Position numbers and translations under genes: made by a program
Assembly: GCF_021654575.1 (NCBI RefSeq)
Contig: NZ_AP024488.1
Span: forward strand, 3,371,501 to 3,435,500
DNA: 64,000 nt
Reading direction: 5' to 3'
From: Desulfoluna limicola
GTDB taxonomy: Bacteria > Desulfobacterota > Desulfobacteria > Desulfobacterales > Desulfolunaceae
Notes under the pieces: model-generated
What the model was told of the DNA's origin: nothing
The model's database searches: none
Seen by the model: the letters and a program-made list of their open reading frames with translations, nothing else
In this document: positions 26,417 to 64,000 of the stretch, one piece after another
How the letters are laid out: the number at the start of each line of letters is the position of its first letter
Position numbering within the stretch: the first letter of the stretch is position 1

Positions 26417-27091
26417 CTATGCCTTACTCATCTTTTTCCGTCTAACTGCAGCACCAGCTAAACCAAAGCCCAAAAGTGCCAACGTCGCAGGCTCGGGAAC
26501 CGGGTCAACAGAGGGAGGTGGCACGTCAATATAGAAGTTATCCATACCGAAACAATCCACTATGTTCCCGACAGTAAAGGAGTACCAAAGGATATCATCA
26601 AAGTCGTCCCCAAGAAAAATTTGAGGGTCTGCTCCGGTCCTGCCCCAATCATCGGAGGGAAGAAGCTGTGAATATCCGTTGGAACTGTTTATGTAGGTTT
26701 CTTCAAAACCGCTGTCAGGCCCCCCGCCGGTATCCGTATTTGATGTAAGAATAAAATAGTTAAGGTCAAAAGCGGCACCATCTAACCTGCTTACACGGAT
26801 TTCGGTCAGGGTCCCATAATCGCCGGAAAGCCAATGCCCATGTACAACATCATTGCCTCCGCCATAATAGTTGCCGATAACCCCGGTCCCCCCTATGAAA
26901 TCCAGTATAAACCCATCCTCTTCATAATAATCAACCATCCCGTTGGAAGTTGTCCCATCAGTAAAAACTGTCCCACCGCCTTGGAGATAGGCGGTTCCTC
27001 CGGTAAAATCAATCTGAATGGCAATGGCTGGTACGGTAAAACTGAACAATAAAAACATGGCACTGAAAAGTTTAAGTAAAATTTTTTGCAT
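26417..27091 (-). CDS. PEP-CTERM sorting-domain protein
   Basis: A 224-residue exported protein. It has a signal peptide (MQKILLKLFSAMFLLFSFTV) and ends with the PEP-CTERM signal: VPEPATLALLGFGLAGAAVR then RRKKMSKA, i.e. the VPEP motif, a membrane helix and a basic tail, which are recognised and cut by an exosortase. The mature part is acidic and beta-rich with GDDFDDILWYSFTV and no named domain. The ATG at 27091 follows AGGAGG. No exosortase gene is in the window. Upstream lie a sigma-54-like promoter and AATTACACA motifs shared with the second PEP-CTERM gene. Confidence 0.92.
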   Translation of the reverse strand: MQKILLKLFSAMFLLFSFTVPAIAIQIDFTGGTAYLQGGGTVFTDGTTSNGMVDYYEEDGFILDFIGGTGVIGNYYGGGNDVVHGHWLSGDYGTLTEIRVSRLDGAAFDLNYFILTSNTDTGGGPDSGFEETYINSSNGYSQLLPSDDWGRTGADPQIFLGDDFDDILWYSFTVGNIVDCFGMDNFYIDVPPPSVDPVPEPATLALLGFGLAGAAVRRKKMSKA

Positions 27092-27213
27092 CTGGCCTCC
27101 TTCATTGTGAATGATGATTTGTGGCATTATGCCTTCACTTCATGTAACGAACCGCCCTGCCAATAACAGACCGCTCCACTAACAAAGCCCCGACACATAA
27201 ACACTTTACACAA

Positions 27214-27232
27214 GTGCAAATATCATTCCGAG
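27214..27232 (-). promoter_or_regulatory. Possible sigma-54 promoter of the PEP-CTERM gene
   Basis: On the minus strand CTCGGAATGATATTTGCAC has GG and GC ten bases apart, as in -24/-12 promoters. The -12 half (TTTGCA) fits well; the -24 half deviates from TGGCA. The inferred start is about 110 bases before the gene. The spacing is the main support. Confidence 0.4.
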
Positions 27233-27334
27233 TATCAAGACCGCATCAAAAACCATTGAAAGGTGCATGGTGACGAACATAAGAAAAAAAATAAGAATCA
27301 ATCCATTCTATGCTGGAGGGGAATTTATTACATT

Positions 27335-27365
27335 AACTACACAAAACTATGTAATCAATTACACA
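27335..27365. promoter_or_regulatory. Direct motif pair AACTACACA/AATTACACA, possible activator site
   Basis: AACTACACA (27335-27343) and AATTACACA (27357-27365) are 22 bases apart, two helical turns, and overlap the near-palindrome TGTAATCAATTACA (27350-27363). The site lies about 120 bases upstream of the sigma-54-like promoter. The same AATTACACA motif pair occurs before the other PEP-CTERM gene. Confidence 0.45.
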
Positions 27366-48407: not shown

Positions 48408-49826
48408 CTAATTCACGAGATCAACCTCAACCGTCACCCCGGTTTTGTCACCTTGGGGGCTTGGAACCGGGGCCCCATCCCTTGCCCCCCCCATCCCAAA
48501 CACACGAATCCTGTCCTTGGCAATTCCGGCTGCGGTCAACCGGCGTTTCACAAACTCTGCCTTGGCCAAAGACAATGCCATAGGGTCATTTCCCTTGGGC
48601 GTTCCATGGGCATACCCCTTAATCACCACAAGGGCATCCCTGTCCTGTTTCAAGGAAGAGGCCACGGCCTGGATCAAGGGGACAGAGCGAGGGTCCATCA
48701 TCCCGCTATCGTACAGAAAGAGCAGGGAAACCGGATATTCCAGCCCCCCCACCTGACCGTTACTCTCTAATCTGTGGGCAACGTCTGCACCCCAGCCCTT
48801 TACATAAGAGGAGATCGTGCCAACACCTCCCCGCTGAACCAGGGCCAATGCAACCGCAACAAATAGGGCACCACAGGTGCCGGCCATCAAGACAGACAGG
48901 CCGGAAGACCTCTTTGCCTGTTTTTTTTCCGAGTCCTCCGGCGTGGAACAAGTCACAAGCCTCTTTTGAGGGGCTGCCTGCCTTGGCCCATCCATAATTC
49001 CAGTCGATTTTTTCACCGGTCTCACAATACCCGGCAGTTTTCTCGCGCCATCCCTGATGGTTTGTTTCTCAAGGCGTTTCACCCCTTTGGAATACCCCAC
49101 CATCATGGCCATGTCACACAACGCATTTATCATTCTCGGTGCCCCACCTGAATACAAATGAATTTCTTCAATGGCTGCTTTTGTAAAAAAATTGGTTTGA
49201 GCCCCCGCCTTTTTCAGCCGGGCTGCAATGTACCTGTAGGTCTCATTCAATACAAGCGGTTCAATGGTATGGCTGGCCGCGATCCGCTGGCGCAGAGCCC
49301 GGGTCCTTTTATGTGACAATGTCTCGAGAAATTCTGTCTGCCCCACAAAAAAAACATTAATCAGTTTGATGCCATCGTTCTCAATGTTGGAGAGGAGGCG
49401 CACATCCTCCAAGAGCCCCTGATCCATCCTCTGGGCTTCATCAATAATCAGAAGAACCTTCTTTCCCTTTTTATAACTTTCTTGCAGAAATCCACGAAAC
49501 CCACTGAGAAACTCAACCTTGGTCAAAAAACGGGTGTCGAGCCCAAATCCTTGGGCCAAATACCCGTAAAAATCCATCACACTGACCCCGGGGTCTGATA
49601 TGATCATATGAATGACAGAATTCGACAACTCACCCACCAGTGCATTTATCAAGGTGGTCTTTCCCACACCGACATCCCCCGTAAGAAGGAGAGGCCCTTT
49701 GTTTTCAACCACCCCATACCGCAAGAGCGCATATGCCTCTCTGTGCTTCTCCCCAAACCAGACAAACTCCGGGCTGGTGGTGATTTCGAACGGTTTGACA
49801 GCAAGGCCATAATGCTTGAGGTACAT
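48408..49826 (-). CDS. ExeA-type AAA ATPase with C-terminal OmpA-like domain
   Basis: A 472-residue protein. The N-terminal MYLKHYGLAVKPFEITTSPE is the typical start of the ExeA/XrtA-associated ATPases; Walker A GDVGVGKTT (50-58) and Walker B VLLIIDEAQ (124-132) are intact. Then a linker, a membrane helix (VLMAGTCGALFVAVALALV) and an OmpA-like end (VVIKGYAHGTPKGNDPMALS... GIAKDRIRVFGMG). The OmpA motif is degenerate: key Asp and Arg of peptidoglycan-binding forms are not obvious. It fits the PEP-CTERM/exopolysaccharide context. Confidence 0.88.
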   Translation of the reverse strand: MYLKHYGLAVKPFEITTSPEFVWFGEKHREAYALLRYGVVENKGPLLLTGDVGVGKTTLINALVGELSNSVIHMIISDPGVSVMDFYGYLAQGFGLDTRFLTKVEFLSGFRGFLQESYKKGKKVLLIIDEAQRMDQGLLEDVRLLSNIENDGIKLINVFFVGQTEFLETLSHKRTRALRQRIAASHTIEPLVLNETYRYIAARLKKAGAQTNFFTKAAIEEIHLYSGGAPRMINALCDMAMMVGYSKGVKRLEKQTIRDGARKLPGIVRPVKKSTGIMDGPRQAAPQKRLVTCSTPEDSEKKQAKRSSGLSVLMAGTCGALFVAVALALVQRGGVGTISSYVKGWGADVAHRLESNGQVGGLEYPVSLLFLYDSGMMDPRSVPLIQAVASSLKQDRDALVVIKGYAHGTPKGNDPMALSLAKAEFVKRRLTAAGIAKDRIRVFGMGGARDGAPVPSPQGDKTGVTVEVDLVN

Positions 49827-49913
49827 TTCAAAACTCCCGCGACATGGAGACGTTAATCATAAATCAAACAGAGCGCCAAAGATGTTTCACACGGGACGAT
49901 GATCAGGGTCCGT

Positions 49914-51065
49914 TTAGGCGGGTTTCACTTCGCCACTGATGCGATGCAGAAATCCGAGTTCAGAGGCCTGTGAGTTTTTCGTACCGATGGCCACCACCTC
50001 CACCACCCCGCCCGAGTGCCGCGTAAAATAGATACGCCCTTTGTATGCGAACTCCGCCTCGAAAAATGTATCGATGCCCCTCCCCCCGAAAACCTTGCGT
50101 TTCACTGTCACGCAGTCAGGGTCGCCATTTAGCTGATGGATCACCTCTTCACACTTCAAGCGCATCCCCTCCTCCAGGTCAAGAAACCCCTTCAAGGCCC
50201 GGTCGTGAACACGCAGGTGTTTATAGAGAACCTTCAGACGCTTGGCCGTGCTCTCTTTTTCCCTGTTTTTGCGTTTTCCGGGTTTCTTGTCCATAATCGC
50301 CCGAGGTTCGCAGAGCATCTTTGTCAACATCTCAATTTCTGATTTTTGAATCACGAGCTTCTCTTCATTCTCCTCGAGCAATTCCTCAAGGCATTCGATC
50401 TCATCAAGAAGCTCACTTTGACTCTCGTTGGACTCAACCAAGCCTTTCCTGGCCTTTTCGAGGTTTTGAAGCAGGGTTTCCTGCCTGTGATTCAAGGCCT
50501 CAAGCTCCAAGCCGGCAAGTTTCTCCCCATCCGTTAACGAAGCAATCGTCAACTCCCGTTCTCTCCGTTCTGATGAGACGTGCGCAACCTGACGCCGATA
50601 CACTCGATTCAGCCCCCCCAATGCAAGGCCAGTAAACAAAAAAAGGGCCCCCACGGACAAAGGGGCATCGGGCTGGGTGTAGAGTGTCACCACAACAGCC
50701 AGCCCCGCCTCAAGGAGGCGATAATTTTCCGAGGCGATTTGCTGCTGAGACGCAAAGGTCAACGCAAGGGGGGATGGTACAGGGTAAACCAACTCTCCGG
50801 AGCTTGTGAATACCTTAATATTCACCGCGGAAAAGAGCCTTAAGGAGAAGTGATCCTCCAGGTATCGCGATATGTTTTCACGGATAAGATCTTTGACGCC
50901 TATGTCTCCGTCCAGAACAGAGTGTTCGCCCTGAAGGAGCTTGCTCTCCAGTTTATTTTGATGATACCGCGTAAAAGATGACACACAAAAAGGCACACCC
51001 CAGACGTACAAAAAAACAGGCAGAAGAATCGATACGACAAGGTGCGTGAATGGAAGATATTTCAT
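49914..51065 (-). CDS. Membrane protein with coiled coil, unknown function
   Basis: A 383-residue protein. One or two N-terminal membrane helices (THLVVSILLPVFLYVWGVPF and a second near 135-150, ALFLFTGLALGG). A long charged region (about 160-250) is a probable coiled coil (ESNESQSELLDEIECLEELL). The C-terminal part VFGGRGIDTFFEAEFAYKGR with IYFTRHSGGVVEVVAIGTK resembles a small beta-strand-rich domain that recalls RelE/ParE-type folds, though this is only by eye. Located between the ATPase and a TPR lipoprotein. Confidence 0.72.
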   Translation of the reverse strand: MKYLPFTHLVVSILLPVFLYVWGVPFCVSSFTRYHQNKLESKLLQGEHSVLDGDIGVKDLIRENISRYLEDHFSLRLFSAVNIKVFTSSGELVYPVPSPLALTFASQQQIASENYRLLEAGLAVVVTLYTQPDAPLSVGALFLFTGLALGGLNRVYRRQVAHVSSERRERELTIASLTDGEKLAGLELEALNHRQETLLQNLEKARKGLVESNESQSELLDEIECLEELLEENEEKLVIQKSEIEMLTKMLCEPRAIMDKKPGKRKNREKESTAKRLKVLYKHLRVHDRALKGFLDLEEGMRLKCEEVIHQLNGDPDCVTVKRKVFGGRGIDTFFEAEFAYKGRIYFTRHSGGVVEVVAIGTKNSQASELGFLHRISGEVKPA

Positions 51066-51125
51066 GGCAAAAAACCAGAATATGGGGGGGTGTTAGCCCG
51101 GAGGTTCATAAAATCGTCGTCCTGT

Positions 51126-51369
51126 CCCGGATATTTCGCGAGTGAGTGCATCCCTACCCAAGGCATCAGAGCTGCTGATGTGGTGGTTTACCTCAATGCT
51201 CTGATAACGAGGAAGATGGGTGCACTCGGCTCGCCCGAAGGGTGAAAAAAACGAGCAGGAATCCGTGACGTCCATTTTGTGTTTTTGACATATCGTAATT
51301 CTTCACAGTAACTTTCAGGAATAACGATCCATTGCTTTGCCTTGATTGTTTTCTCCTGAAATATCCAGG
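51126..51369. mobile_element. 244-bp terminal-inverted-repeat element, copy 2 (MITE-like)
   Basis: It starts CCCGGATATTTCGCGAG and ends CTCCTGAAATATCCAGG, better matched inverted repeats than copy 1. It has the same length and block order as the 35301-35544 copy: AAGGCATCAGAGCTG, CAATGCTCTGATAAC, GGGTGCACTCG and CATTTTGTGTTTTTGACAT. A minus-strand open frame in both copies gives similar peptides (YCEELRYVKNTKWTSRIPAR / YCEKLRHVKNTKCRSRFPAR). No transposase. Confidence 0.82.
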
Positions 51370-51478
51370 CTATGGCAACATCACCTGTAAAACCTTGGGC
51401 CAGGGATGCCTGGTCACCCCCATGCCCCCAACGGGCCAAACCGGCCTCCCCCCCCACAACCCCTTCTACTTTTCGGGG

Positions 51479-53752
51479 TTAATTCTGAGCAAGTATTCCC
51501 CGCGCTTCATCCGCGCCCTTGAAATCAGGGTTCAACTGGAGAGCCTTCACGAGGGACGCCCTGGCTTTTTCGATGTTTCCACTGGCATGGAGCGCCAGCC
51601 CCAGGTGGTAATTCACGACGGGGTTTTCAGGTAATTTTTCAAGGCTGTCCTTAAACTCCGAGATGGCGCTGTCGTACAGCCCCTTCCTGTAATAGACCAG
51701 GCCAAGGGTATCCATAATGCTTGGGTCATCAGAGGCGTTGCTTTTTGCCTCCCTTGCCAGTTCCAGGGCTTCATCGATTTCATGATTCTGCTCTGCCAGA
51801 ATATAGGCAAGGTTGTTGGCTGCTGCCACATTATCCTTTCGGATGGCAAGAGCGTTTCTGTAGCACACCTTGGATGACTCCACATCCCCCTTGGACTCAT
51901 TCATGATCCCCATGATCACATGGGGCAAGGGGTCATGTTTGTTCTTTTCAGCTGCCAGTTGAAACTGCGCCAGCACACGATCCATTTCCCCCCTTCGCTG
52001 ATAGACCTCGGCCAGCCCGTAATAGGGTCGGGTCACATCGGGGTTGGTCGCTATGGCTTCCCTGTAGGCCTCCTCTGCATTATCGAGGTCACCCGTCGTT
52101 ACATAGAGCCGACCCATCACGCCATAAACACGTGAAACATCGGCAGGGGTATCCACAGCCGCAAGCTGCTCGTCACACAGCGCAAGAGCTTTCCGGGGCT
52201 CATGTTGAAGCACATAACAACGCACCATGCCGGTAAAAGCATCCATCATGCGCGGGTTGAGTTTACGTGCTTTGGCCAGGTTCTCTTGCGCGGCATCGTA
52301 CTGCCCCTTTCTCAGGTAAATCATCCCGGAATGATAAAAAGCCAAGGGGTTCTCCGGCGCCTGCGTCATCAAAGCCCCGTAAGCCTCCAGTGCCTCATCA
52401 AGGTCGCCTGTGGCGGCATGAATATGCCCCATCAACAGAGAGACCTTATAAATATCGGTCCGTTTTTCGAGTATTTTATTCAACGTATCCTTCGCCAATG
52501 TGTACTCATGCGCCCTGTAATAAAAATCAGAAAGCGCAATCTGTGCCTGAAGGTGAGAAGGATCCAGCTCCAGAGCTCTCAACACATCCTTTCGCCCCAA
52601 ATCATCGGAGCCAAGAGCCATATACGCAATGCCGCGAAGGTAGTATGCCTTTGTATTTTTCGGGTCATCGGAGACCACCAACGTCAATGTCTTCACCGCG
52701 GAATCCAACTCATTGTCTTTTAACTCGAGGGCCCCCCTCAAGGTTAGCGCTGGAAGAAACCCCGGGTCTTTGTCCAGAACAACGGTGACCATCTCCCGAC
52801 TCTTTGCCAACTCATCGTGTTTTAAATAGAATTGAGCCAGAGCGACCTGAATGCCCTGGTCGTCGGGATTCATCTCCAATGCTTTGTTAAACATGCCCTT
52901 GGCATTATCCCTCTCCCCGGTTTTTTCATACAACTCCGCCAGCTTTAAAATAGGCGCCACCGAGGTCTTGTCGGCGTTCGACGCATCAAGGTATGCCTCT
53001 GTTGCCGCCGTGATCTTTTCGCGCGCCATTAGGAAATCACCCAGAACAAGAAGCAAGCCCAGGTTTTCCCTGTGTTTACCCACAAGAATTCGCAGCTCCT
53101 GTTCCGCCTGTTCATACTGTTGCGCACTATTGTAGAAATTCACAAGATCGAGACGAACCCGAACGGACTCCGGAACCACGAGGAGGCCCTCACGCAATGC
53201 AGCCTCTGCTCCTGAGTAATCACCTTGCTTCATACGAACCTGAGCGATGCCGCGAAAAGCCCGAACCTCGTCGGGTTGTATGTTCAAAACATGCCCATAC
53301 ACCTCCAGGGAATTATCTTCGGCCCCTGTCACCGCCAGAAGAGCGGCAGATACAAGCAGGTACTCTATATTATCCGGATCGTTCGCCAAGGCCGTTTGAA
53401 TGTGGTTTTTAGCTTCATCACTCTGTTTTGCAAGCAAATAGAGTTTGGAGAGGTTAAAATGGGCTTCATTATGATTCGGCTGCTTCTCCACAACATTCAT
53501 GTAGGCTCGAAACGCCTCTTTCGGGGCCCCCTGCTTCATGGAGATTTGACCAATTTCAAACCATGCCTGTGAATAATTCGGGTCAAGTTGGACGCAGTTC
53601 TTATACTCCAGAAGTGCTGCCTTGAGGTTTCCTTCGACAACATATGATGAACCCTTTTTAAAATGTGCATCACGTTTTTCCTCGTCTGAAGCACATGAAC
53701 TGAAAACAACAGCAATGGCGCACACGATTAAACCAAGGCGTTTAAATACCAT
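51479..53752 (-). CDS. PrsT-like TPR lipoprotein of the PEP-CTERM system
   Basis: A 757-residue lipoprotein (signal LIVCAIAVVFSSC, Cys at 20) followed by about 20 TPR repeats nearly to the end, e.g. AALLEYKNCVQLDPNYSQAW and DEALEAYGALMTQAPENPLA. PrsT proteins of PEP-CTERM/exosortase loci have this design. It probably lies in the periplasm or outer membrane and scaffolds polysaccharide export. GGGGG is upstream of the ATG. It is next to the ExeA-type ATPase and the coiled-coil protein on the same strand. Confidence 0.88.
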   Translation of the reverse strand: MVFKRLGLIVCAIAVVFSSCASDEEKRDAHFKKGSSYVVEGNLKAALLEYKNCVQLDPNYSQAWFEIGQISMKQGAPKEAFRAYMNVVEKQPNHNEAHFNLSKLYLLAKQSDEAKNHIQTALANDPDNIEYLLVSAALLAVTGAEDNSLEVYGHVLNIQPDEVRAFRGIAQVRMKQGDYSGAEAALREGLLVVPESVRVRLDLVNFYNSAQQYEQAEQELRILVGKHRENLGLLLVLGDFLMAREKITAATEAYLDASNADKTSVAPILKLAELYEKTGERDNAKGMFNKALEMNPDDQGIQVALAQFYLKHDELAKSREMVTVVLDKDPGFLPALTLRGALELKDNELDSAVKTLTLVVSDDPKNTKAYYLRGIAYMALGSDDLGRKDVLRALELDPSHLQAQIALSDFYYRAHEYTLAKDTLNKILEKRTDIYKVSLLMGHIHAATGDLDEALEAYGALMTQAPENPLAFYHSGMIYLRKGQYDAAQENLAKARKLNPRMMDAFTGMVRCYVLQHEPRKALALCDEQLAAVDTPADVSRVYGVMGRLYVTTGDLDNAEEAYREAIATNPDVTRPYYGLAEVYQRRGEMDRVLAQFQLAAEKNKHDPLPHVIMGIMNESKGDVESSKVCYRNALAIRKDNVAAANNLAYILAEQNHEIDEALELAREAKSNASDDPSIMDTLGLVYYRKGLYDSAISEFKDSLEKLPENPVVNYHLGLALHASGNIEKARASLVKALQLNPDFKGADEARGILAQN

Positions 53753-54396
53753 GACACCCCCAGGAAGCTTAATAGATTATAAAAACCGACCCCGCCCCAA
53801 AAAAAGCGCATCAATATTTTTGCACGACATCGGGACCACACCAAGGACTCGAACGCCACCATCTGTCCGAGGCATCTGAACAGTAATCTGCGACCTTACT
53901 ATTCAACCAAATCATCACAGTGGCCGTGATCTATGTATGTTATGATACGACAGACAAAAATGAGATATGTAAAAAGATATCTATCAAAAATCAGATCTCG
54001 ATAAATATATTGGCATCAGCACGATCACCTCACCAAATGAAAAATATTCAGCAAAGATGGTGGCGAGCTGAGATTGGCAACGCAGAGAGCCACATGTGTT
54101 GGGAACAACAAGTTATCATGGATCAAAAAGAGTGGACTTCATCTTGACTTGCTGGCTTCATTAAATCGCTCAGTATGCGATTCGTTATGTACTTAACTTA
54201 AATTGATATGATTCTGCTGCGATTGTGTCAATGCTTTTTATCAACAGAGATAAACTATGAAATTAATTACACAGTTCCACACCCACCTATAACCTAAATT
54301 ACACAATCCCACTTTTTGTAACGCCCCCAATCCTGTTCAAGTTCTCATGCCATGCGAAAACAAAGGCTCCGCACAAAATGATGTCGCAACCCACAA
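53753..54396. other. Intergenic stretch upstream of the riboswitch-controlled PEP-CTERM gene
   Basis: About 640 bases, AT-rich from 53930. Short frames (53920-54147) lack a ribosome-binding site. It holds the AATTACACA motif pair described separately. Confidence 0.4.
54265..54305. promoter_or_regulatory. AATTACACA motif pair, possible activator site
   Basis: AATTACACA occurs at 54265-54273 and 54297-54305, 32 bases apart (three helical turns), about 95-135 bases upstream of the sigma-54-like promoter. That is the usual location for an enhancer-binding protein. The same motif is upstream of the other PEP-CTERM gene (27335-27365). Confidence 0.5.
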
Positions 54397-54414
54397 TTGG
54401 CATTATTCATGCAC
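54397..54414 (+). promoter_or_regulatory. Sigma-54-type promoter of the PEP-CTERM gene
   Basis: TTGGCATTATTCATGCAC has GG-N10-GC spacing. The -24 half TTGGCA matches the consensus exactly; the -12 half ATGCAC fits partly. The expected start is near 54425, leaving an untranslated leader of about 340 bases that contains the riboswitch. Confidence 0.6.
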
Positions 54415-54661
54415 AATATCCATGTGGAATGCCGCAATAAGCTTTATCAACGGTTCAAGGCACCCACCTTGATTTTATACCCCACAAAATATCGACAACA
54501 CTCCTTGCATGAGTTTTCTGCCATGCCTTTACAAGACGCCGGATCAGATTGCCCTTGATCCGAAATATAAACACACTGACATACTGCCAAAGGAGGTGAA
54601 ATAAATTCATTCAGTCTAAAGCGTAAGGTTGCACCGTTCAAAGGATGACAATCAATAACCG

Positions 54662-54742
54662 CACCAAGACAATGCCAAACCCGTTGCGAAACGGGGACGG
54701 AAAGCCACGGGTCTCCTAAAGGAGAGATCGCCGGGCTACCTT
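54662..54742 (+). ncRNA. GEMM/cyclic-di-GMP-I riboswitch
   Basis: Core elements of the GEMM class: CAAAC before stem CCCGTT-GCGA-AACGGG, whose GCGA tetraloop docks into P3; the junction GGACGGAAAGCCACGGG; the P3 stem TCTCC-TAAA-GGAGA; and CGCCGGGCTACC at the end. The aptamer ends about seven bases before the Shine-Dalgarno AAGGGA of the PEP-CTERM gene, so control of translation start is possible. The usual ligand is cyclic di-GMP; a cGAMP-type variant cannot be excluded by eye. Confidence 0.9.
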
Positions 54743-54761
54743 GAAACTCAAGGGACTCTAC

Positions 54762-55451
54762 ATGATGAAAAAAATAGTAAAATTTCTTATCCCTCTCTTT
54801 TTATGCACCCTCTGTCTATCCGCAAGTGCTTCGGCCCTCACGGTCACATTTGAGGACAACATCAACTACTGGCCCGGGTATGAATCGTCCATCGATGCCC
54901 AGAATGATGTTGACGTCGTCGGCTCCAGTCCTCATGTGGGGACGACCACAATCGAAATGAATGAAAACAGATACCTGCAAAGCATTTCTATTGAAGTCGA
55001 AGATCGAGTCCACTTTGATTCCCTCTTTATTAACACACGAAATTACGATGACCAGACGATGAATATTGAGGGATGGGATTATTATGTTAACACAGGGTGG
55101 CTCAGTAGCAAAACAACTGCCGTCATGCTCAGTAAAGTAAATGAAAAATATGAATATGGATGGACAATTGACAGCCCATCTGTTAGAAATGACCATCCAA
55201 ACTCCATCATAAGCGGCCTGACTGATCTCCAGAACATTTGGGTCACCTACGAAAATGACGTCTTAACATACGACTTCTCCGGCCTGGAAGAGATGGCCAT
55301 TCTCCTTGGTGATAGTTTTGTCATCGGGTACACCCCCAGTTGTGCAAACGATGTGATCCTAAACCCCGTCCCAGAGCCCACAACCATGTTTCTTCTGGGG
55401 GGAGGCCTCATCAGTATAGCCGGCACCATGAGGCGACGTAAGAAGAGCTAA
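54762..55451 (+). CDS. PEP-CTERM sorting-domain protein under riboswitch control
   Basis: A 229-residue exported protein. Signal peptide MMKKIVKFLIPLFLCTLCLS up to ASASA; the mature part DNINYWPGYESSIDAQNDVD is acidic and beta-rich; the C-terminus NPVPEPTTMFLLGGGLISIA then GTMRRRKKS is a PEP-CTERM signal for exosortase. The ATG at 54762 follows AAGGGA; a TTG at 54741 overlaps the riboswitch end. It is read from a sigma-54-like promoter. Probably a cell-surface or matrix protein made when cyclic di-GMP or the regulator permits. Confidence 0.92.
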   Translation: MMKKIVKFLIPLFLCTLCLSASASALTVTFEDNINYWPGYESSIDAQNDVDVVGSSPHVGTTTIEMNENRYLQSISIEVEDRVHFDSLFINTRNYDDQTMNIEGWDYYVNTGWLSSKTTAVMLSKVNEKYEYGWTIDSPSVRNDHPNSIISGLTDLQNIWVTYENDVLTYDFSGLEEMAILLGDSFVIGYTPSCANDVILNPVPEPTTMFLLGGGLISIAGTMRRRKKS

Positions 55452-55472: not shown

Positions 55473-55509
55473 AAAAAAGGCCGTGTACATAAAGTACACG
55501 GCCTTTTTT
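55473..55509. terminator. Bidirectional rho-independent terminator
   Basis: AAAAAAGGCCGTGTAC and GTACACGGCCTTTTTT are a perfect 16-bp stem with a five-base loop and T-runs in both directions. It separates the convergent PEP-CTERM and acetyltransferase genes. Confidence 0.95.
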
Positions 55510-55534: not shown

Positions 55535-56770
55535 TCAACGTTGCTCAACCTGCTTACATTTAGTCGTCTGACAGGCATGTCGAATTTTTCTCAAAAATGG
55601 GATCGCATGCGCTTCAAAATGAGACTCAACCAGTCCCTTCATGCAACACGAATTGAACCCTCGATAACGTGCCCTGACATCATTCAATGTGCCTTTGAAA
55701 TTTAACTTAAAAGACTCACTCCCTTTCTGAAAATCTAACGAAGAGACATGGTCGACGTCCAAAAGATACCTCAACACAAACCACATCAACAGGGAACCCA
55801 CTGAGTACTCGACAAATGCCTTATTGTATGCCGTTTTCAGATCATATGCTTTCCCTTTGTACACCACAACAAAACGAGCTGCCACGGGATTATAGCCTTC
55901 GGGAACCACACAACCCTGCTGAGAAAAAGAATTACATGCCAGATCGGAGGTTCCTGAATGTGGTTCGCCCTTTTTATAGTAGAGGAGAAACAAACGAAGA
56001 GCCCCTATCCTTGCAAGATAATGGGCAAGTTTCCTGTGAAAACAAGGATCTGCCTCCTCTCCTTTCCAACTGTCTCCATAAACTTTGTTGTACATCGACA
56101 TGCCATGATCGACATCACATGTTTCTAAGGAATAAACAGCCATATAAAAGCCTCCATCCCTAGTAAGTTTCTTCTCGCTCCTGACAAGAGAACGACGGAG
56201 ATTCCGGCTCAACGCTGAATAAAAGGATTGAGATGTATCAAAGCGACTCAAGTCAAGAACGATATTAGGGAACCGTGGCTCAGACATGCCAATGATGCCG
56301 AGGGCCCCTAACTCGTCTTTAAAGGCATCAAGCATGCGATCCTTCGAGGGAAGGTCATCAAAAAAGACCAGATCCCACTCCCGGGCCATCGGGCCTCGCA
56401 CGAATTGAGCCATGGCCGAACCGACCTTCTCTTCCCATCCGAACCGTGCAAGGCCGCCCCTTACCGGGGAATATAGTGACCCTATCAACTCAAGACTGCG
56501 GTAATCAAAAAAACGCAGCTTGCGTCGACCCATGCACATCGGAAGAATCCCGATGAGTTCATCACCATGATACGCGCAAAGAATCTTCAGATTCTCTAAG
56601 GGAACACTGCTGCAAACAAACAATGCCTGATACCAGTCAAAACTGGTATAGAAATGGCTCTGTCCGTTTTGGTTGGAAAGCGCCCGCCACCCAGACTCAA
56701 GGGTAAGAAACCCTTCATGTGTTGTGCAAACATCGATGTTAAGCAACAACGCCTGCCTTTCAACTCGCAA
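55535..56770 (-). CDS. CelD/BcsL-family acetyltransferase (GNAT-like)
   Basis: A 411-residue cytoplasmic protein. The first half has FYTSFDWYQALF and LKILCAYHGDELIGILPMCM, typical of the CelD/BcsL group, and the second half has FVVVYKGKAYDLKTAYNKAF with SVGSLLMWFVLRYLL, the GNAT-like acetyl-CoA-binding region. Family members lie in cellulose or exopolysaccharide loci and are thought to acylate sugars. Downstream neighbours fit that. GNAT catalytic residues cannot be confirmed by eye. Confidence 0.85.
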   Translation of the reverse strand: MRVERQALLLNIDVCTTHEGFLTLESGWRALSNQNGQSHFYTSFDWYQALFVCSSVPLENLKILCAYHGDELIGILPMCMGRRKLRFFDYRSLELIGSLYSPVRGGLARFGWEEKVGSAMAQFVRGPMAREWDLVFFDDLPSKDRMLDAFKDELGALGIIGMSEPRFPNIVLDLSRFDTSQSFYSALSRNLRRSLVRSEKKLTRDGGFYMAVYSLETCDVDHGMSMYNKVYGDSWKGEEADPCFHRKLAHYLARIGALRLFLLYYKKGEPHSGTSDLACNSFSQQGCVVPEGYNPVAARFVVVYKGKAYDLKTAYNKAFVEYSVGSLLMWFVLRYLLDVDHVSSLDFQKGSESFKLNFKGTLNDVRARYRGFNSCCMKGLVESHFEAHAIPFLRKIRHACQTTKCKQVEQR

Positions 56771-56927
56771 AATTAACAGATGAATAAAACGCCCTGAGGG
56801 ACAAACCGATGAGGAGAGCTAAAGACGATTTACTATTAAGCATTCGCTTTATCTCAAATCTTTAACCACAACAGGTTCAACCACTTGATATCTATACATA
56901 CAAGCTTTGAAAACAAAGAAAGCATTC

Positions 56928-58070
56928 TTATGGAACGGGTACCTGACGCCATACATAATAGTGAATTTGATCAACCACATTATCAGCATCCAGATCTATA
57001 CTTTTATATTCAGGGTACCCTGTGGAATAAAAGTGTGTTGCTTGGACTAAATCAATCGTGCCATCACCATCTCCGTCAAAACGCACTTCACTTGGAAAGC
57101 GGTAATGTTTCATCCTGTTATATTCATAAGCGTCTATGAGTGCGGGATTTAACATGTCCGTAAGAAAGTCTTCAGAATCCATAGAATATAAAAAAACCAT
57201 ATCAAAGGTTAAGTTATTATCCTGAGATTCATACTTGAATTCAGTTCGCTGGTCTACAGTAACGTCATCACCCTTATAAATTTCCTCCAATATTCGATCA
57301 TTATCGCTATTATACGCATATTTCCTATATTCGGGTGATGAATCACTCCATCCAGTTCTGTTCATCGCATGATCGTAATCCGAAAGTACAGTAAAACCGG
57401 CTTTCTCACCTTTAAGGATATATCCATTTGATGTGTATTCAAATTCAGTCAACAAGGTCTCAGACCGTAAGTGATCATAAACTTCAAATTCCAGTATTGT
57501 CCCATCATCATTATAACTATAAGTAATTGTTTGTAAATCAACATACGCATTGGATCCTGTCTTACTGGAACGGGTTTCAGTTTGAACCCGAGCACCGGCA
57601 TAAGTCAATTTTCTTTTATATGTCACTCCGCTTGAAGCAATTTGAGTTATTTTTGAATCAAGACTCCCCTCTAAATTATAGGTATAAAAAGATTGATAGA
57701 GCAATGAATCATCTTCATAGGAAGTTTCCGATATTTTGTGATGGTCATCGTCGTATTCATAATCGATAACCCAATTTACCCCCATTTTTTTTATACAATC
57801 CCCCTGATCGTCAAATTCATCCTCGAGTACTATCTCGTACTCTCCGTCGTTGTTCATATCCATTCTAAGACCCACAATTTTCCACTCGCCATCGGCCACA
57901 TCACCTGTGCCGGGAACAATCACAGTGTCTCCAGGAAGGGCTGATTCGTTTGCTGAGGGAACGACCTCACCATCACTCCCGCTACCGCCCCCACAACCCA
58001 TGAGTACCAACGCTGAGCATGTCACCAACATCATAAAAATCGCATGAACCATAGATACATAATATTTCAT
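56928..58070 (-). CDS. Lipoprotein with YD-repeat-like and EF-hand-like sequence
   Basis: A 380-residue lipoprotein (signal to LVLMGC, Cys about 25). The mature part has repeated Tyr-Asp-rich strands such as YEYDDDHHKISETSYEDDSL and FEYTSNGYILKGE, much like RHS/YD repeats. It also has two Asp/Asn-rich stretches (DMNNDGEYEIVLEDEFDD and GDGDGTIDL), possibly calcium-binding. An extracellular or cell-surface role is inferred. AGGAG precedes the ATG at 58070; the longer frame is ignored. No close family named. Confidence 0.8.
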   Translation of the reverse strand: MKYYVSMVHAIFMMLVTCSALVLMGCGGGSGSDGEVVPSANESALPGDTVIVPGTGDVADGEWKIVGLRMDMNNDGEYEIVLEDEFDDQGDCIKKMGVNWVIDYEYDDDHHKISETSYEDDSLLYQSFYTYNLEGSLDSKITQIASSGVTYKRKLTYAGARVQTETRSSKTGSNAYVDLQTITYSYNDDGTILEFEVYDHLRSETLLTEFEYTSNGYILKGEKAGFTVLSDYDHAMNRTGWSDSSPEYRKYAYNSDNDRILEEIYKGDDVTVDQRTEFKYESQDNNLTFDMVFLYSMDSEDFLTDMLNPALIDAYEYNRMKHYRFPSEVRFDGDGDGTIDLVQATHFYSTGYPEYKSIDLDADNVVDQIHYYVWRQVPVP

Positions 58071-58691
58071 GTCAGATCTCCTAATGATAATGAATAATGA
58101 ACAGTTCCGGAAAGATTCAACGTACGTTATAGCTAATGGTAGATGTAGCAAGAAGAGATTCGTTTAAAAACCAATCTGAAAATGCACACACAGGTGTTAC
58201 GAAAAGAACCCTGATAAAAAGACCTCACCTCTGGGCAACAAAGCTGCAATAGCCGCTTAATCCGGAGGCGACAACTTCATTGACAACCACCGGGAGTCAG
58301 GCGACTGAGAAAGATGGCAAACAAATATCAATTTTATGTAGCCTCATAAACCGCTGCAAACGTGCGTACTTTGCTTCTCATTTGGCCTTGCCTGGAAAGG
58401 CGATAGCCATTTCAGACATATTGACTGTCCTGAGTTACAAAAGCGCTATCATATAATCAACTAGGAAACCGACTCTTGACATCTGCCAGGCGAGGCTTTA
58501 TTTGAGGGTGTACTTCAAGTGGTTCAGATCTATCACTTGGTAATATCTTTTTAATTTCATAGAAATCATAAGCAATCTAAAAAGCCTATTATAACTCTTA
58601 AATATTAAACAGTTACAGCCATTTACACTGTACAGAGATCAATGCTGTATCATATGTCGAGATATTAACGCACTCTTTAATACTACATAAG
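58071..58691. other. Intergenic stretch; no gene recognised
   Basis: About 620 bases, AT-rich toward 58691. No family A repeat. Short frames give no support. Confidence 0.4.
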
Positions 58692-59066
58692 CTACTCAGT
58701 TCGTTTTAGATCAAACATACAATCATCAGGCGGCACCGGAATTGCCATGGAGTTTTCAGAGACTTCTCCTTTTGTACCATCTGGATAGGTATCTTGAACA
58801 GAGCAATGGCAATCGATACCGCCATCGATTTTGTCAAACTCAATCCTAATTGGAAGGGTGTCTGTTGGTGTTACGTTGTAGCTCGTTTCTCCTATTATTA
58901 TTTGTTTACCATCGGCATCGATACACAAGCATTTTACTTCAAATTTTGAAATATCTGAACTCTCGGGGTAAACGTCTAAGCTAAGTGTGGCCGTGAAACC
59001 AGATGTCAAAGAGAGTCCTAAAAAGAACAACACAACCACCACAACGGAATATTTGACGATTCTCAT
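58692..59066 (-). CDS. Small secreted hypothetical protein
   Basis: A 124-residue protein with a signal peptide (RIVKYSVVVVVLFFLGLSLT, cut near SGFTA). The mature part has four or five Cys (EVKCLCIDADGK, IDCHCSVQD, DDCMF) that could form disulfides. No family recognised. The start is ATG at 59066, just after a GTG. It lies in the AT-rich sugar-biosynthesis region. Confidence 0.7.
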   Translation of the reverse strand: MRIVKYSVVVVVLFFLGLSLTSGFTATLSLDVYPESSDISKFEVKCLCIDADGKQIIIGETSYNVTPTDTLPIRIEFDKIDGGIDCHCSVQDTYPDGTKGEVSENSMAIPVPPDDCMFDLKRTE

Positions 59067-59192
59067 CACACCGCCCCTTAAATCTACTTGTATTTCATCA
59101 TAGAATTTATGTAAATTTTAGCAAAATAACCTCAAGAATGTTTCATATTCGCAAAAACTTTAAGCTATAGATTTGTATTATTGTCAAAAAAA

Positions 59193-60530
59193 TTATTGCT
59201 TAAGCTCAGACACAAAATATCTCAACTTTCCTGATTTTTCAGCTTCAATATGATATACTGAGACAAAATTATAATCTATTAGACTGCTCAAGTTTGTCTT
59301 TAAATCAGCCACTAAAGTATCTATGATTTCTTCTTTAAATATATTTGTCTTTACAATATATATATTAATCTCACTCAACGTTTTTTGCACAGCTCTAAAT
59401 TTTTCAATATAAATAGAGTATCTACCTAATATATATGCAAACTTAGCATCATAAATAACTTTCCCATCAGGTGTTCTAATGAAATCATCTTGTCTTCCCT
59501 CATTTATACTTATTAAAGGGAAATGAATCCCACAGCTACATACCCGAGAATATTTTATCCCGATATCCCCTGTTCTATACCTAATAAACGGATAAGAGCG
59601 TGCAAATAGTTCGGTAACAACTATTTCACCAATCTCATCAATAACGACTTTTCCGTCTTTTATGACCTCAACAATGATATTGGATGACATTTCGTGTATA
59701 TTCCCATGAGGACATTCAAAACCTATAATACCGACCTCAGTATTACCATACTCTTGAATCACTGGAGTTTGGAAAACCTTTCGGATATATTTTAGCTGAT
59801 CAAGTACAGGCTTTTCCCCTGTGACAATAATGACTTTTGGGGTAAATGATTTAAATGAGAAATTGTTTTGATCAAAAAAACATGCAAAATGATAAAGAAC
59901 AGAAGGGTACCCGTAAAAGTACACAGGCTTAAAACGTTCAAGCCTTCTGTAATATTGCATCATATGATGAGCACTTAAATTAAAAGCTGATAACCGTATA
60001 CGATTCATTAAAAAATCTTTAATATGTGCCTCGACACGCTTGAAAAATGATACTGGCACGCCCCAAAACCGTGCCTGAGGTGAACCAATACCAATACCAT
60101 GCCAAGAGTACACATGATACATTACAGCATCCTGATACGCTGTTGCGAACCTATCTCTGACAAAAGTAAAAGGATCACCAGTTGACCCACTTGTATTCCT
60201 CTTAATATGATTGGAAACTTTATTATTCTTTAATCTATCTGAGTTAGTTTTAAAAATATGTTTATCCATTATCGGCAAATCACACAAGCACTCTTCGACC
60301 TCTAAATATTCATCAGATTTACTATTTATTTGAGAAGCATATTTACTATAATATTCTATATTACCAATATTGGTAAAACAACTTTTTAATTTTTCTAATT
60401 GATAGTGTTTAAGCTCTTGCGATGAATAGTTATCAATATCTCTAACTCGTGCAAGACATTTTAATATGTTCTCTCTTCGAATCAACCTTATAGGGTAAAA
60501 TAAAAGGTACTTAGAAAATGATTTATTCAT
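59193..60530 (-). CDS. PaaK/CapK-like acyl-adenylate-forming enzyme
   Basis: A 445-residue protein of the phenylacetate-CoA ligase group often found in capsule loci as CapK. It has the phosphate-binding loop NTSGSTGDPFTF, then EYGNTEVGIIGFECPHG, where the ligase has an acyl-binding loop, and the conserved RTGDIGIKYSRVC-CG, with paired Cys that may bind zinc. It may activate a carboxylic acid for sugar modification. Very AT-rich, suggesting transfer. The ATG at 60530 is chosen. Confidence 0.88.
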   Translation of the reverse strand: MNKSFSKYLLFYPIRLIRRENILKCLARVRDIDNYSSQELKHYQLEKLKSCFTNIGNIEYYSKYASQINSKSDEYLEVEECLCDLPIMDKHIFKTNSDRLKNNKVSNHIKRNTSGSTGDPFTFVRDRFATAYQDAVMYHVYSWHGIGIGSPQARFWGVPVSFFKRVEAHIKDFLMNRIRLSAFNLSAHHMMQYYRRLERFKPVYFYGYPSVLYHFACFFDQNNFSFKSFTPKVIIVTGEKPVLDQLKYIRKVFQTPVIQEYGNTEVGIIGFECPHGNIHEMSSNIIVEVIKDGKVVIDEIGEIVVTELFARSYPFIRYRTGDIGIKYSRVCSCGIHFPLISINEGRQDDFIRTPDGKVIYDAKFAYILGRYSIYIEKFRAVQKTLSEINIYIVKTNIFKEEIIDTLVADLKTNLSSLIDYNFVSVYHIEAEKSGKLRYFVSELKQ

Positions 60531-60566
60531 AATCAATCCCTTCTACAAAAACAATCAGATAAATCT

Positions 60567-61784
60567 CTATTCAGCTAAAGGAAAAATGACGGGAAACCCC
60601 TGAAGGCCTTCTTCGTTCTGATCTGAAATGTTTCCATCTTCATCAATAACAAAAAGATACTGTATTTGATTGTATGGCAACGCATTTTGATTAACTTTAA
60701 TTTTAATTATATCTCTAGATGCTGCTTGTAATCTTGGCCATTTCAGTGAATATTGAATTTCACGATGCGTACACTCATTATAAATTTTTGCATCACCAAT
60801 CTCCACTCTTGCCCATGACGAATCTATATAAATGTCATCATAATAAAATTTTACCCATGCATCTAATCCTTCATCTGCTTCGCATTTCATATAATTCATC
60901 AAATAAAAAGAATTAATTTTTTCACCAATGTTCCCCAATAAATTGTATTCTGCATTTGGCCATTGAGAATCTATTACAAGATAAGGTTTATTTGGTTGTG
61001 ACATCCACCCTATCCATCTACCATTTGCTTTCCCAACATCCCCAAGTTGAATTTGCAAAATCAAATTATACCATTCGCCATCCACTAAATTTTGGTCAAA
61101 ATAATGGGTTTCTCCAGTTCCATGATTATGGTAATATTGCCGAGTTATTGACCCGTCTTGATTCGGCCAGATAAAAAAAGCAAAATCAGGATAGGTCGTA
61201 GAAGCATTAGATTCAACATTGGCTGCAACTCTGAAAGTCTTGATTTGATAATCTGGATCGGTATTATCCCTAGCAAATTGGTATTTTAGCCACAAATTCA
61301 CATACACCTTTCCCATTTTCGCAAAGCCAATATCATTTCTCCATGCTTGAGCAGAACGTGCCCCAGTAATCATATGAGCTTCTATATTTACATTACTATG
61401 TCGATGCCGTTGATTGGTTGAGCTTGTAGAAATATAACTTTGATTCGATCGATCTACCCACCAAGAATCTGTCTCAGGCAATTTTGCCCCTACGTCTAAC
61501 GACTCAAAATCAGCACGCGGATATAAAGGATCTGCCTCATCCGGCTCCGAATCCGGGTCAGGATCCATCCTACGACCAAAACCATCTCCGATAATATAAT
61601 ATTCACTACCATGAATTAACGGTTGAGGGGACTGAGCCTGCTCCCTACTTTGCGTTATAATCGTATTTGTGCCTTGCTGTTCCTGTGAAACCAACATGAT
61701 GCTGTCAACTTCAAGAGAATAGGTTAAACGAGAAAAGGCAACAACTACGAAAAAAAACGTTGCATGAAAAATAACTTTATTCAT
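60567..61784 (-). CDS. Secreted hypothetical protein, possibly carbohydrate-binding
   Basis: A 405-residue exported protein (signal MNKVIFHATFFFVVVAFSRLTYS). The mature part is aromatic- and Asp-rich (LYPRADFESLDVGAKLPETD; PDFAFFIWPNQDGSITRQYY; VKFYYDDIYIDSSWARVEIG) and looks like a jelly-roll lyase or lectin-like fold, but no family is sure. It sits among sugar-synthesis genes and could act on the polymer outside the cell. Strongly AT-rich. Confidence 0.72.
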   Translation of the reverse strand: MNKVIFHATFFFVVVAFSRLTYSLEVDSIMLVSQEQQGTNTIITQSREQAQSPQPLIHGSEYYIIGDGFGRRMDPDPDSEPDEADPLYPRADFESLDVGAKLPETDSWWVDRSNQSYISTSSTNQRHRHSNVNIEAHMITGARSAQAWRNDIGFAKMGKVYVNLWLKYQFARDNTDPDYQIKTFRVAANVESNASTTYPDFAFFIWPNQDGSITRQYYHNHGTGETHYFDQNLVDGEWYNLILQIQLGDVGKANGRWIGWMSQPNKPYLVIDSQWPNAEYNLLGNIGEKINSFYLMNYMKCEADEGLDAWVKFYYDDIYIDSSWARVEIGDAKIYNECTHREIQYSLKWPRLQAASRDIIKIKVNQNALPYNQIQYLFVIDEDGNISDQNEEGLQGFPVIFPLAE

Positions 61785-61943
61785 AACTTACCCCTAAAAA
61801 TAAAATCGTAATTTTCCGCCTTATTTATCATTTCTTACGAGGATAGAAAATGAAAGTGACTTTTCATTAATCGTCATAAACAATCATTGAGTATAATTTA
61901 TTCTACACCTCTATAATTTCCCCACACTAAACCACTGAATTCA
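61785..61943. other. Short intergenic gap, AT-rich
   Basis: About 160 bases with no features. Confidence 0.4.
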
Positions 61944-62960
61944 TCACTTCAAGCCATCATTTATCAAACGAATTAAATTATTACTCTTCATTTCCCACTG
62001 ACTCTTCATTGAAATCTTCATCAACCTCATTCTTTCTTGAACAAGAGTATAGTTGGACAATACATAATTAATACTCATAGATATTGCATCAGGTGATAAC
62101 TCGGTGAAAATGACGCCCTTATCAAAGAAATTTTTTTGTGTTTCTGTATTCGATACAATTAATGGCTTCTCTAAAGCAACGGCTTCATACGACCCACATG
62201 TTAAAGTATACTCTTGTGTTGTGAGTGCCATAATTATTTTTGACTTTGAAAGTAAATTGATGTAATCTTGTTCGGCTAAATACCCGGTTAAGATGAAATT
62301 ATGAGATAATCGTTTAATCCTTCTGATCTGTTTGTTTTTATTATAATCTCCCGTCACTAATATATCACACACACCCCTAAGATAACTTGCGGCTACAGCA
62401 ACTTCTTCAATTGGTTCATCATCAGAGAATGAACATATACATACGACATCATCTAAAGCGCTTGGAGAATTTTTACTCATTACTGTTAGTGATGGTATTT
62501 TATCTTCTAAAACAAAACCTCGCCCACCCATTGATTCAATTAGGTCTTTTAAACATTTGTTCGTAACTACCGTTAAGTCAGCTTCCTTTATCGTCTGTGA
62601 ACTAAGATAATGAAACATTCTGTATTTAAGTTCTTTGGAATTCTTTTTTTCAATCTTAAAATTTGAGTGCCTATCAACCACAAGATAAAATTTAAGTATC
62701 TTTTTAGCTAAGCATACAATGAATGTTAAAACCACTGATGGATTTTGAACAACTATAAAATTTGGTTTCTTTAACATGATAAAAAAAAGAGTTTTAGTGA
62801 TCAAAACAGGGTACTTCGTAGCTCTAAATCTCTGAAAAATTTCGAATGTTTTAATATACTTATATTCAATACCATAATTTTTAGATAACTCTTTGGATCT
62901 TCGATGATCCTCCCACGTCAGCCACACGCCCATATTTTTCAGAATATTTCCGTTATTCAT
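61944..62960 (-). CDS. Glycosyltransferase (GT4-like)
   Basis: A 338-residue cytoplasmic or peripheral enzyme. VWLTWEDHRRSKELSKNYGI and PNFIVVQNPSVVLTFIVCLA suit an N-terminal Rossmann fold, DLTVVTNKCLKDL the linker, and ICSFSDDEPIEEVAVAASYL with YTLTCGSYEAVALEKPLIVS the C-terminal sugar-nucleotide-binding fold. Sugar and linkage are unknown. The ATG at 62960 follows AGGG; starts further upstream are weaker. Confidence 0.82.
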   Translation of the reverse strand: MNNGNILKNMGVWLTWEDHRRSKELSKNYGIEYKYIKTFEIFQRFRATKYPVLITKTLFFIMLKKPNFIVVQNPSVVLTFIVCLAKKILKFYLVVDRHSNFKIEKKNSKELKYRMFHYLSSQTIKEADLTVVTNKCLKDLIESMGGRGFVLEDKIPSLTVMSKNSPSALDDVVCICSFSDDEPIEEVAVAASYLRGVCDILVTGDYNKNKQIRRIKRLSHNFILTGYLAEQDYINLLSKSKIIMALTTQEYTLTCGSYEAVALEKPLIVSNTETQKNFFDKGVIFTELSPDAISMSINYVLSNYTLVQERMRLMKISMKSQWEMKSNNLIRLINDGLK

Positions 62961-63164
62961 AGATACCCTATCCTTAGCAGGATCATTATCCTGCAAACCA
63001 AATCATCCGAATTCAATTTAATTATCCTATGTTCTTTCATCAACTTGAATACGATGGAAATCATTCGAAACATGATTCATCTAAATTCCAAGAGATACAT
63101 CTTTACCTTCACCTTTTGCTGAAAACAGTTCATCTAACAGACATTTCTGATATAAAACGAGTCC
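62961..63164. other. Short intergenic gap, AT-rich
   Basis: About 200 bases between two glycosyltransferase genes; no features. Confidence 0.4.
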
Positions 63165-64000
63165 TCAAAATTTTAAAAGACTTAGAACTCGTTTTTCAAT
63201 TATTTTCGCTTGAGCCTTTACATCAAACAAACTTATGGCACGGTCAACATATTTCATCGCATTCTGTATAGAGGGGCTTTTCATTTCATCTAATATTGCA
63301 TCAGCAAGGGCCCTACTGTCTCGAGAAGGAATTTTCCTTGCGGATAACTTATTATCAGTCATGATTTCCCTTAGCCCCCTGCAGTCAGTCCCAATGACCG
63401 GAACCCCAGCAACCATGGCCTCCATGGGAATTAGTGGGCATGCTTCCCAAAGCGATGGTATAGCCAAAACATTGAGTCCTTTCAGTGACACCGCAACATT
63501 GGAGGTAAAAGGCAGAAAAATAAAATAGTTAGATAAACGCTTTCTACGTATCATATTTTGCTCTTCACGGATAAATCCTCCCCACCCAAAACAAATAACT
63601 TTAAACGGAAAGTCTACGTTCTCTTTTCTGTCTATAATTTCCACAGCATCAATAAGGTACCGAAATCCCTTGGGAGCCATAAAACGCCCCATGAAGCCGA
63701 CTAAAAACGTTTTGGGATCAAGCTTCAACTCCTCTTGAAAATTACGCCGTTCAGAGATATGAAACTGAGATATCATGATCCCATTTCGTGCTACAAAGCT
63801 TTTATCCTCAAATCGTTTCAGTAAAGGCAAGTGGTGATAAAAATTTTTTTTTGCTTCATGAGATACGTAATGAATTTTGTCAATTAGAATCAAACCAGCA
63901 ATCAGTGTAGCCTTTTTGATTACGCCAATAATACCACTAAACTGATTGTCATTAAACGAATCATGTGAAGTCATGAGATGGGGAATACTAAAAAGTTTGG
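63165..64000 (-). CDS. Glycosyltransferase family 4 protein (partial)
   Basis: The C-terminal 278 residues are visible; the frame stays open to the right edge (…KLFSIPHLMTSHDS), and the protein lacks most of the first domain expected for GT4 enzymes of about 370 residues. It has VGFMGRFMAPKGFRYLIDAV, a GT4 donor-domain start, and EACPLIPMEAMVAGVPVIGT, the E-x7-E catalytic motif. It probably transfers a sugar in exopolysaccharide synthesis. An internal Met exists at 63974 but the true start is outside the window. Confidence 0.88.
   Translation of the reverse strand, partial: KLFSIPHLMTSHDSFNDNQFSGIIGVIKKATLIAGLILIDKIHYVSHEAKKNFYHHLPLLKRFEDKSFVARNGIMISQFHISERRNFQEELKLDPKTFLVGFMGRFMAPKGFRYLIDAVEIIDRKENVDFPFKVICFGWGGFIREEQNMIRRKRLSNYFIFLPFTSNVAVSLKGLNVLAIPSLWEACPLIPMEAMVAGVPVIGTDCRGLREIMTDNKLSARKIPSRDSRALADAILDEMKSPSIQNAMKYVDRAISLFDVKAQAKIIEKRVLSLLKF

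Follow-up and report, generated by a model that had tools for sequence, protein, structure and literature searches.

Does the PEP-CTERM gene at 54762–55451 of this stretch of Desulfoluna limicola DNA answer to two regulators at once, one acting on its transcription and one on its translation? In many environmental bacteria, PEP-CTERM/exosortase systems build the extracellular matrix, and to our knowledge their triggers are largely unknown. The window that we analyzed is a stretch of 64,000 nucleotides within a single-contig genome of 6.26 Mb, and all genome-wide searches cover these 6.26 Mb. Relatives identified by protein comparison carry mostly Desulfobacterales or Deltaproteobacteria labels. 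As suggested by an initial annotation of the window, we find that two-layer control, with transcription depending on sigma-54 and an enhancer-binding protein and translation switched on by c-di-GMP, is the best reading of the locus (probability about 0.78), with comparative support from orthologues, motif enrichment and recurrence in the order.

Results and Discussion

The gene, which begins with an ATG at 54762 on the forward strand, encodes a protein of 229 residues that scores above the cut-offs of both TIGR02595 (27.3 bits, cut-off 16) and PF07589 (27.5 bits, cut-off 20.7), in agreement with its annotation as a PEP-CTERM protein. With a signal peptide and a C-terminal sorting signal (PEP, transmembrane helix, basic tail), this protein is probably secreted and matrix-associated. 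The gene reads as a single-gene unit that would end at an intrinsic terminator with a 16-bp stem and a T6 tract (55473–55509), an element that we read from the sequence and that is absent from a simple terminator scan. The unit is located within an exosortase/exopolysaccharide-type cluster (48408–53752 and 55535–63974) that comprises an XrtA-type ATPase and a PrsT-like TPR lipoprotein on one side, and a FemAB-like acetyltransferase, a CoA-ligase-like protein and a glycosyltransferase on the other. Orthologues of the 229-residue protein are present in other families; a search for relatives in viral contigs found none.

Upstream of this gene we located the sigma-54-type promoter TTGGCATTATTCATGCA (54397–54413), which has the proposed spacing of 10 nt between the −24 GG and the −12 GC. 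According to the −12 rule, transcription would start at about 54424 (G), so that the predicted 5′ leader (54424–54761) measures 338 nt, close to the 340 bases estimated initially. By itself this motif is weak evidence. Its −12 half (ATGCA) is imperfect, and the pattern TGGCAN7TGC occurs three times in the 64-kb window where 3.2 occurrences are expected, which is chance level. These observations leave room for the alternative that the sigma-54 motif is coincidental and that a genuine riboswitch is transcribed from a sigma-70-type promoter nearer the aptamer. A promoter scan did return a weak sigma-70-like site at 54645–54673, and the 240 nt between the sigma-54 promoter and the aptamer have no obvious role. 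However, sigma-70-like sites of this kind are no more common than in shuffled sequence, and the one at 54645–54673 overlaps the aptamer. The sigma-54 site, on the other hand, is credible because of its place, its conservation in orthologues, an enhancer-like box at fixed spacing and the enrichment of such sites across the order. We consider a sigma-70 start improbable and continue with the sigma-54 promoter.

Four orthologous loci from other families (L028, L029, L030 and L032) carry near-perfect sigma-54 sites (TTGGCATCTCACTTGCA, TTGGCACCCATATTGCT, CTGGCACTGATCTTGCT, TTGGCACATCATTTGCA) 70–190 nt upstream of the orthologues' open frames. The enhancer-like box consists of a 26-nt direct repeat (54255–54280 and 54287–54312, both on the forward strand) with copies 32 nt apart, 77% identical and 84–142 nt upstream of the −24 element; the first copy contains the near-palindrome TGAAATTAATTACA (54258–54271). 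The 650 kb that we fetched contain 16 distinct copies of the box AATTACAYA; five loci have it 101–170 nt upstream of a PEP-CTERM gene's strict sigma-54 site. The palindrome TGTAAT-N2-ATTACA occurs, with at most one mismatch, in only five places in the 6.26 Mb genome, and only two of these five are followed 133–140 nt downstream by a GG-N10-GC pair. One stands before the PEP-CTERM gene at 54762, the other before the window's second PEP-CTERM gene (26417–27127, reverse strand). The repeat at 54255–54312 is a putative upstream activator site whose box is shared with other PEP-CTERM genes.

The promoter region of the second gene (27220–27363) contains the TGTAATCAATTACA box in perfect form and, at a distance of 31 nt, a weaker second copy. 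It also has the GG-N10-GC site TCGGAATGATATTTGCAC, with the same spacing between box and promoter as at the 54762 gene. Since this second gene is without a riboswitch, it offers a natural control for the promoter layer alone.

Which protein might bind the repeated box? The initial annotation had pointed to PrsK/PrsR control of PEP-CTERM genes in other Proteobacteria. The regulator is not recovered by the strict model: in a profile search that covered PrsR (TIGR02915) of the two proteins, no protein of the genome exceeded the cut-off of 502.6 bits, the best candidate scoring 427.9 bits among dozens of sigma-54 activators. The genome may encode a divergent PrsR. The available parts of Haft et al. 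(2006) describe an activator motif ending in TTTACA, sometimes repeated, that lies about 63 nt upstream of a −24(GG)/−12(GC) motif, and this pair precedes 99 of 167 proteobacterial PEP-CTERM genes (PMC1569441). Our locus resembles these PrsR-box regions as a single-gene unit with a long upstream region and a repeated activator motif. It differs from what those parts describe by its box (TGTAAT-N2-ATTACA rather than a motif ending in TTTACA), by the lack of a strict PrsR match and by its riboswitch, which has no counterpart there (PMC1569441).

The leader holds two further features. A terminator-like hairpin followed by TTTTATA (54455–54472), about 30 nt downstream of the predicted start, could be an attenuator. 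At 54590–54600, the sequence AAAGGAGGTGA forms a perfect Shine–Dalgarno element 172 nt upstream of the ATG at 54762 with no start codon behind it; for want of a properly spaced start codon, we rejected the idea that a hidden gene begins there. It ends a 31-codon frame (54509–54604) which has no Shine–Dalgarno element of its own. The same sequence recurs in the leader of one orthologue (L030, position 1399, reverse strand) and otherwise only in L111 and L124 among the fetched loci.

A c-di-GMP-I riboswitch just before the ribosome-binding site had also been annotated, and covariance searches confirm it. The aptamer (54665–54744), directly upstream of the Shine–Dalgarno-like AAGGGA (54750–54755) and the ATG, exceeds the gathering scores of RF01051 (66.1 bits, cut-off 35) and of RF03167 (71.9 bits, cut-off 59; the best Rfam match) with an E-value of 4e-15, far beyond chance, and its fold has a z-score of −3.4. 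From the cmscan alignment we read the pocket residues as G20 (54674), A47 (54701) and C92 (54739). Conservation of these three residues predicts c-di-GMP as the ligand.

Might the aptamer instead sense cGAMP, or have an altered specificity as the Rfam label of RF03167 (c-di-GMP-I-GGC) implies? RF03167 is indeed the best match, the pair next to the pocket is C21–G46 (54675/54700) instead of G21–C46, and changes low in P2 can shift the c-di-GMP/cGAMP selectivity of GEMM-I RNAs (PMC9262584). However, the RF03167 consensus has G47, and the A at 54701 is a marked mismatch in the cmscan alignment; the label is therefore misleading, no altered ligand should be read from it, and we rejected this assignment on the basis of A47. 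Likewise, an A at position 20 is the mark of the cGAMP-type GEMM-Ib, which we rejected because of the G at 54674. Among 121 distinct aptamers from the order Desulfobacterales, A47 is present in every one, while C21–G46 occurs in 87 and G21–C46 with G20 in 30. The unusual pair is thus a habit of the lineage rather than a peculiarity of the 54762 gene. A ligand other than c-di-GMP seems to us unlikely.

The genome contains nine GEMM-I aptamers, mostly upstream of genes for secreted proteins. Tandem and triple aptamers are found in the same genome and genus (L007, 1501–1750; L052, 1501–1780) before genes of a secreted-protein family (MSDSELAGITGQAGFA...). With A20 in the third copy at L052, this array may combine sensors of c-di-GMP and of cGAMP. 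One weak match (L009, 1501–1588; genome 1101063–1101150, reverse strand; 37.5 bits) with A20 and G21–C46 is unlike the other eight in the genome, and we found no clear gene downstream of it. At L012, the region before a reverse-strand PEP-CTERM gene (genome position 553052) contains AAAGCCACGGATCTCATGGGGAGACTGCC, which resembles the 3′ half of an aptamer of the GEMM-I type; it matches no Rfam model and is possibly a decayed riboswitch.

How could this aptamer control translation? Its P1 helix comprises only four base pairs between CAAG (54665–54668) and CUUG (54740–54743). In the alternative pairing, 54739–54744, that is C92 and the 3′ strand of P1, pairs with the Shine–Dalgarno region at 54748–54753, forming the hairpin CCUUGA-AAC-UCAAGG (54739–54753). 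Because P1 and this masking hairpin share 54740–54743, they are mutually exclusive, and a translational ON switch is predicted. In the computed fold of the leader without ligand, the masking pairs have probabilities of 0.75–0.99 and P1 has 0.00; the energies are −34.6 kcal/mol for the masked leader and −30.3 kcal/mol with P1 forced, a cost of 4.3 kcal/mol. Even with P1 forced, the Shine–Dalgarno element pairs for the most part with downstream coding sequence, which makes the ON direction likely, not certain.

This residual pairing is also what speaks for an OFF switch, or for an action on mRNA stability or Rho access instead of translation initiation, and the Vc2 riboswitch is reported to be a translational OFF switch (PMC9262584). 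We regard these modes as unlikely, given that the free RNA is predicted to be masked with more than 98% pairing, that P1 excludes the masking hairpin, and that no terminator lies between the aptamer and the gene at 54762. Furthermore, a PEP-CTERM gene from another family (L083) has the same layout (CAAG ... CCUUG-GAAA-CAAGGAG). The ON switch remains the likely reading of our folding model.

A leader at another locus (L053, 1379–1620) combines a GEMM-I aptamer, an upstream enhancer box TATTACATGAATTACATAG and an intact masking hairpin. It now stands before a transposase-like frame; an insertion element may have captured the leader of a PEP-CTERM gene here.

Combined, these elements suggest the following mechanism. 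An enhancer-binding protein on the repeated box (54255–54312) would activate sigma-54 polymerase at 54397–54413. In the absence of c-di-GMP, C92 and the 3′ side of P1 would pair with the Shine–Dalgarno region and keep translation off. Once c-di-GMP binds at A47 and C92, P1 and C92 would be fixed in the aptamer, the Shine–Dalgarno region released and translation turned on. The net effect would be an AND gate for a secreted PEP-CTERM protein.

Comparison with orthologues indicates that the two layers have separate histories. No riboswitch was found with Rfam models in the leaders of the fetched orthologue loci, which suggests that the riboswitch belongs to the leader of the 54762 gene and not to the protein family. 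As these orthologues keep sigma-54 sites without it, promoter and riboswitch appear to evolve separately, and an older sigma-54 unit presumably either gained the riboswitch or lost it.

To see how widely this arrangement recurs in the Desulfobacterales, we examined 116 GEMM-I leaders, each preceded by 250 nt or more of sequence, a sample of best-scoring matches rather than a random draw, in which one genome (G171) supplies several leaders. A strict sigma-54 site lies within 400 nt upstream in 27 of these 116 best-scoring leaders, amounting to 26 distinct sites from 21 genomes and 13 families. Shuffled sequences gave a mean of 0.79 and a maximum of 4, reversed sequence gave 1 and the antisense strand 3. 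On both strands of the genome (12.5 Mb) the motif occurs 367 times, a density that predicts about 1.4 such leaders. A more demanding estimate places all of the roughly 220 sites by which this genome exceeds its reversed control before transcription units, assumed to number about 3000, which leads to an expectation of about 7% of leaders; the observed 23% is still threefold higher. A strict site also stands no more than 350 nt upstream of 24 out of 57 PEP-CTERM genes from the order, compared to none on reversed or antisense sequence. Sigma-54 site, GEMM-I aptamer and PEP-CTERM gene occur together in ten loci from eight genomes and five families (L003, which is the 54762 gene, and L049, L083, L098, L099, L131, L138, L142, L147 and L204), with L049 as the weakest. 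The arrangement is therefore not a one-off.

With about a quarter of the sampled leaders from 13 families carrying both elements, we propose translation control by c-di-GMP as a second key. On balance we lean toward the view that, in this order, the layering of GEMM-I riboswitches on sigma-54/enhancer promoters is systematic and adds a further requirement to genes already gated by an activator, with PEP-CTERM matrix proteins as a main output.

Conclusions

Both layers are of known kinds. The PEP-CTERM gene pepA of Aquincola tertiaricarbonis has a mapped transcription start, a −24/−12 motif and RpoN1-dependent transcription (PMC9850573). Our gene shares the PEP-CTERM product and the −24/−12 motif; a riboswitch or c-di-GMP layer is not mentioned for pepA, neither term occurring in that paper (PMC9850573). 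The RNA resembles the GEMM-I riboswitches of RF01051 (Vc2, Cd1) in fold, ligand residues and place before a surface-protein gene, and differs from Vc2 and Cd1 by C21–G46 in place of G21–C46 and by its predicted translational ON action under a sigma-54 promoter. GEMM-Ib riboswitches of Geobacter, which sense cGAMP, are similar in RNA architecture, control of surface genes and tandem copies (PMC6456294, PMC8835794). In contrast, our aptamer has G at position 20, and a link to RpoN is named in neither paper (PMC6456294, PMC8835794). In a literature search on PEP-CTERM genes with riboswitches and on RpoN with GEMM riboswitches, which lay outside most subscription journals, we found no account of the two layers combined, and their layering is apparently undescribed.

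The proposed reading predicts an AND gate in which a sigma-54 activator and c-di-GMP are both needed. If it is true, synthesis of a matrix protein would be coupled directly to the biofilm second messenger c-di-GMP.
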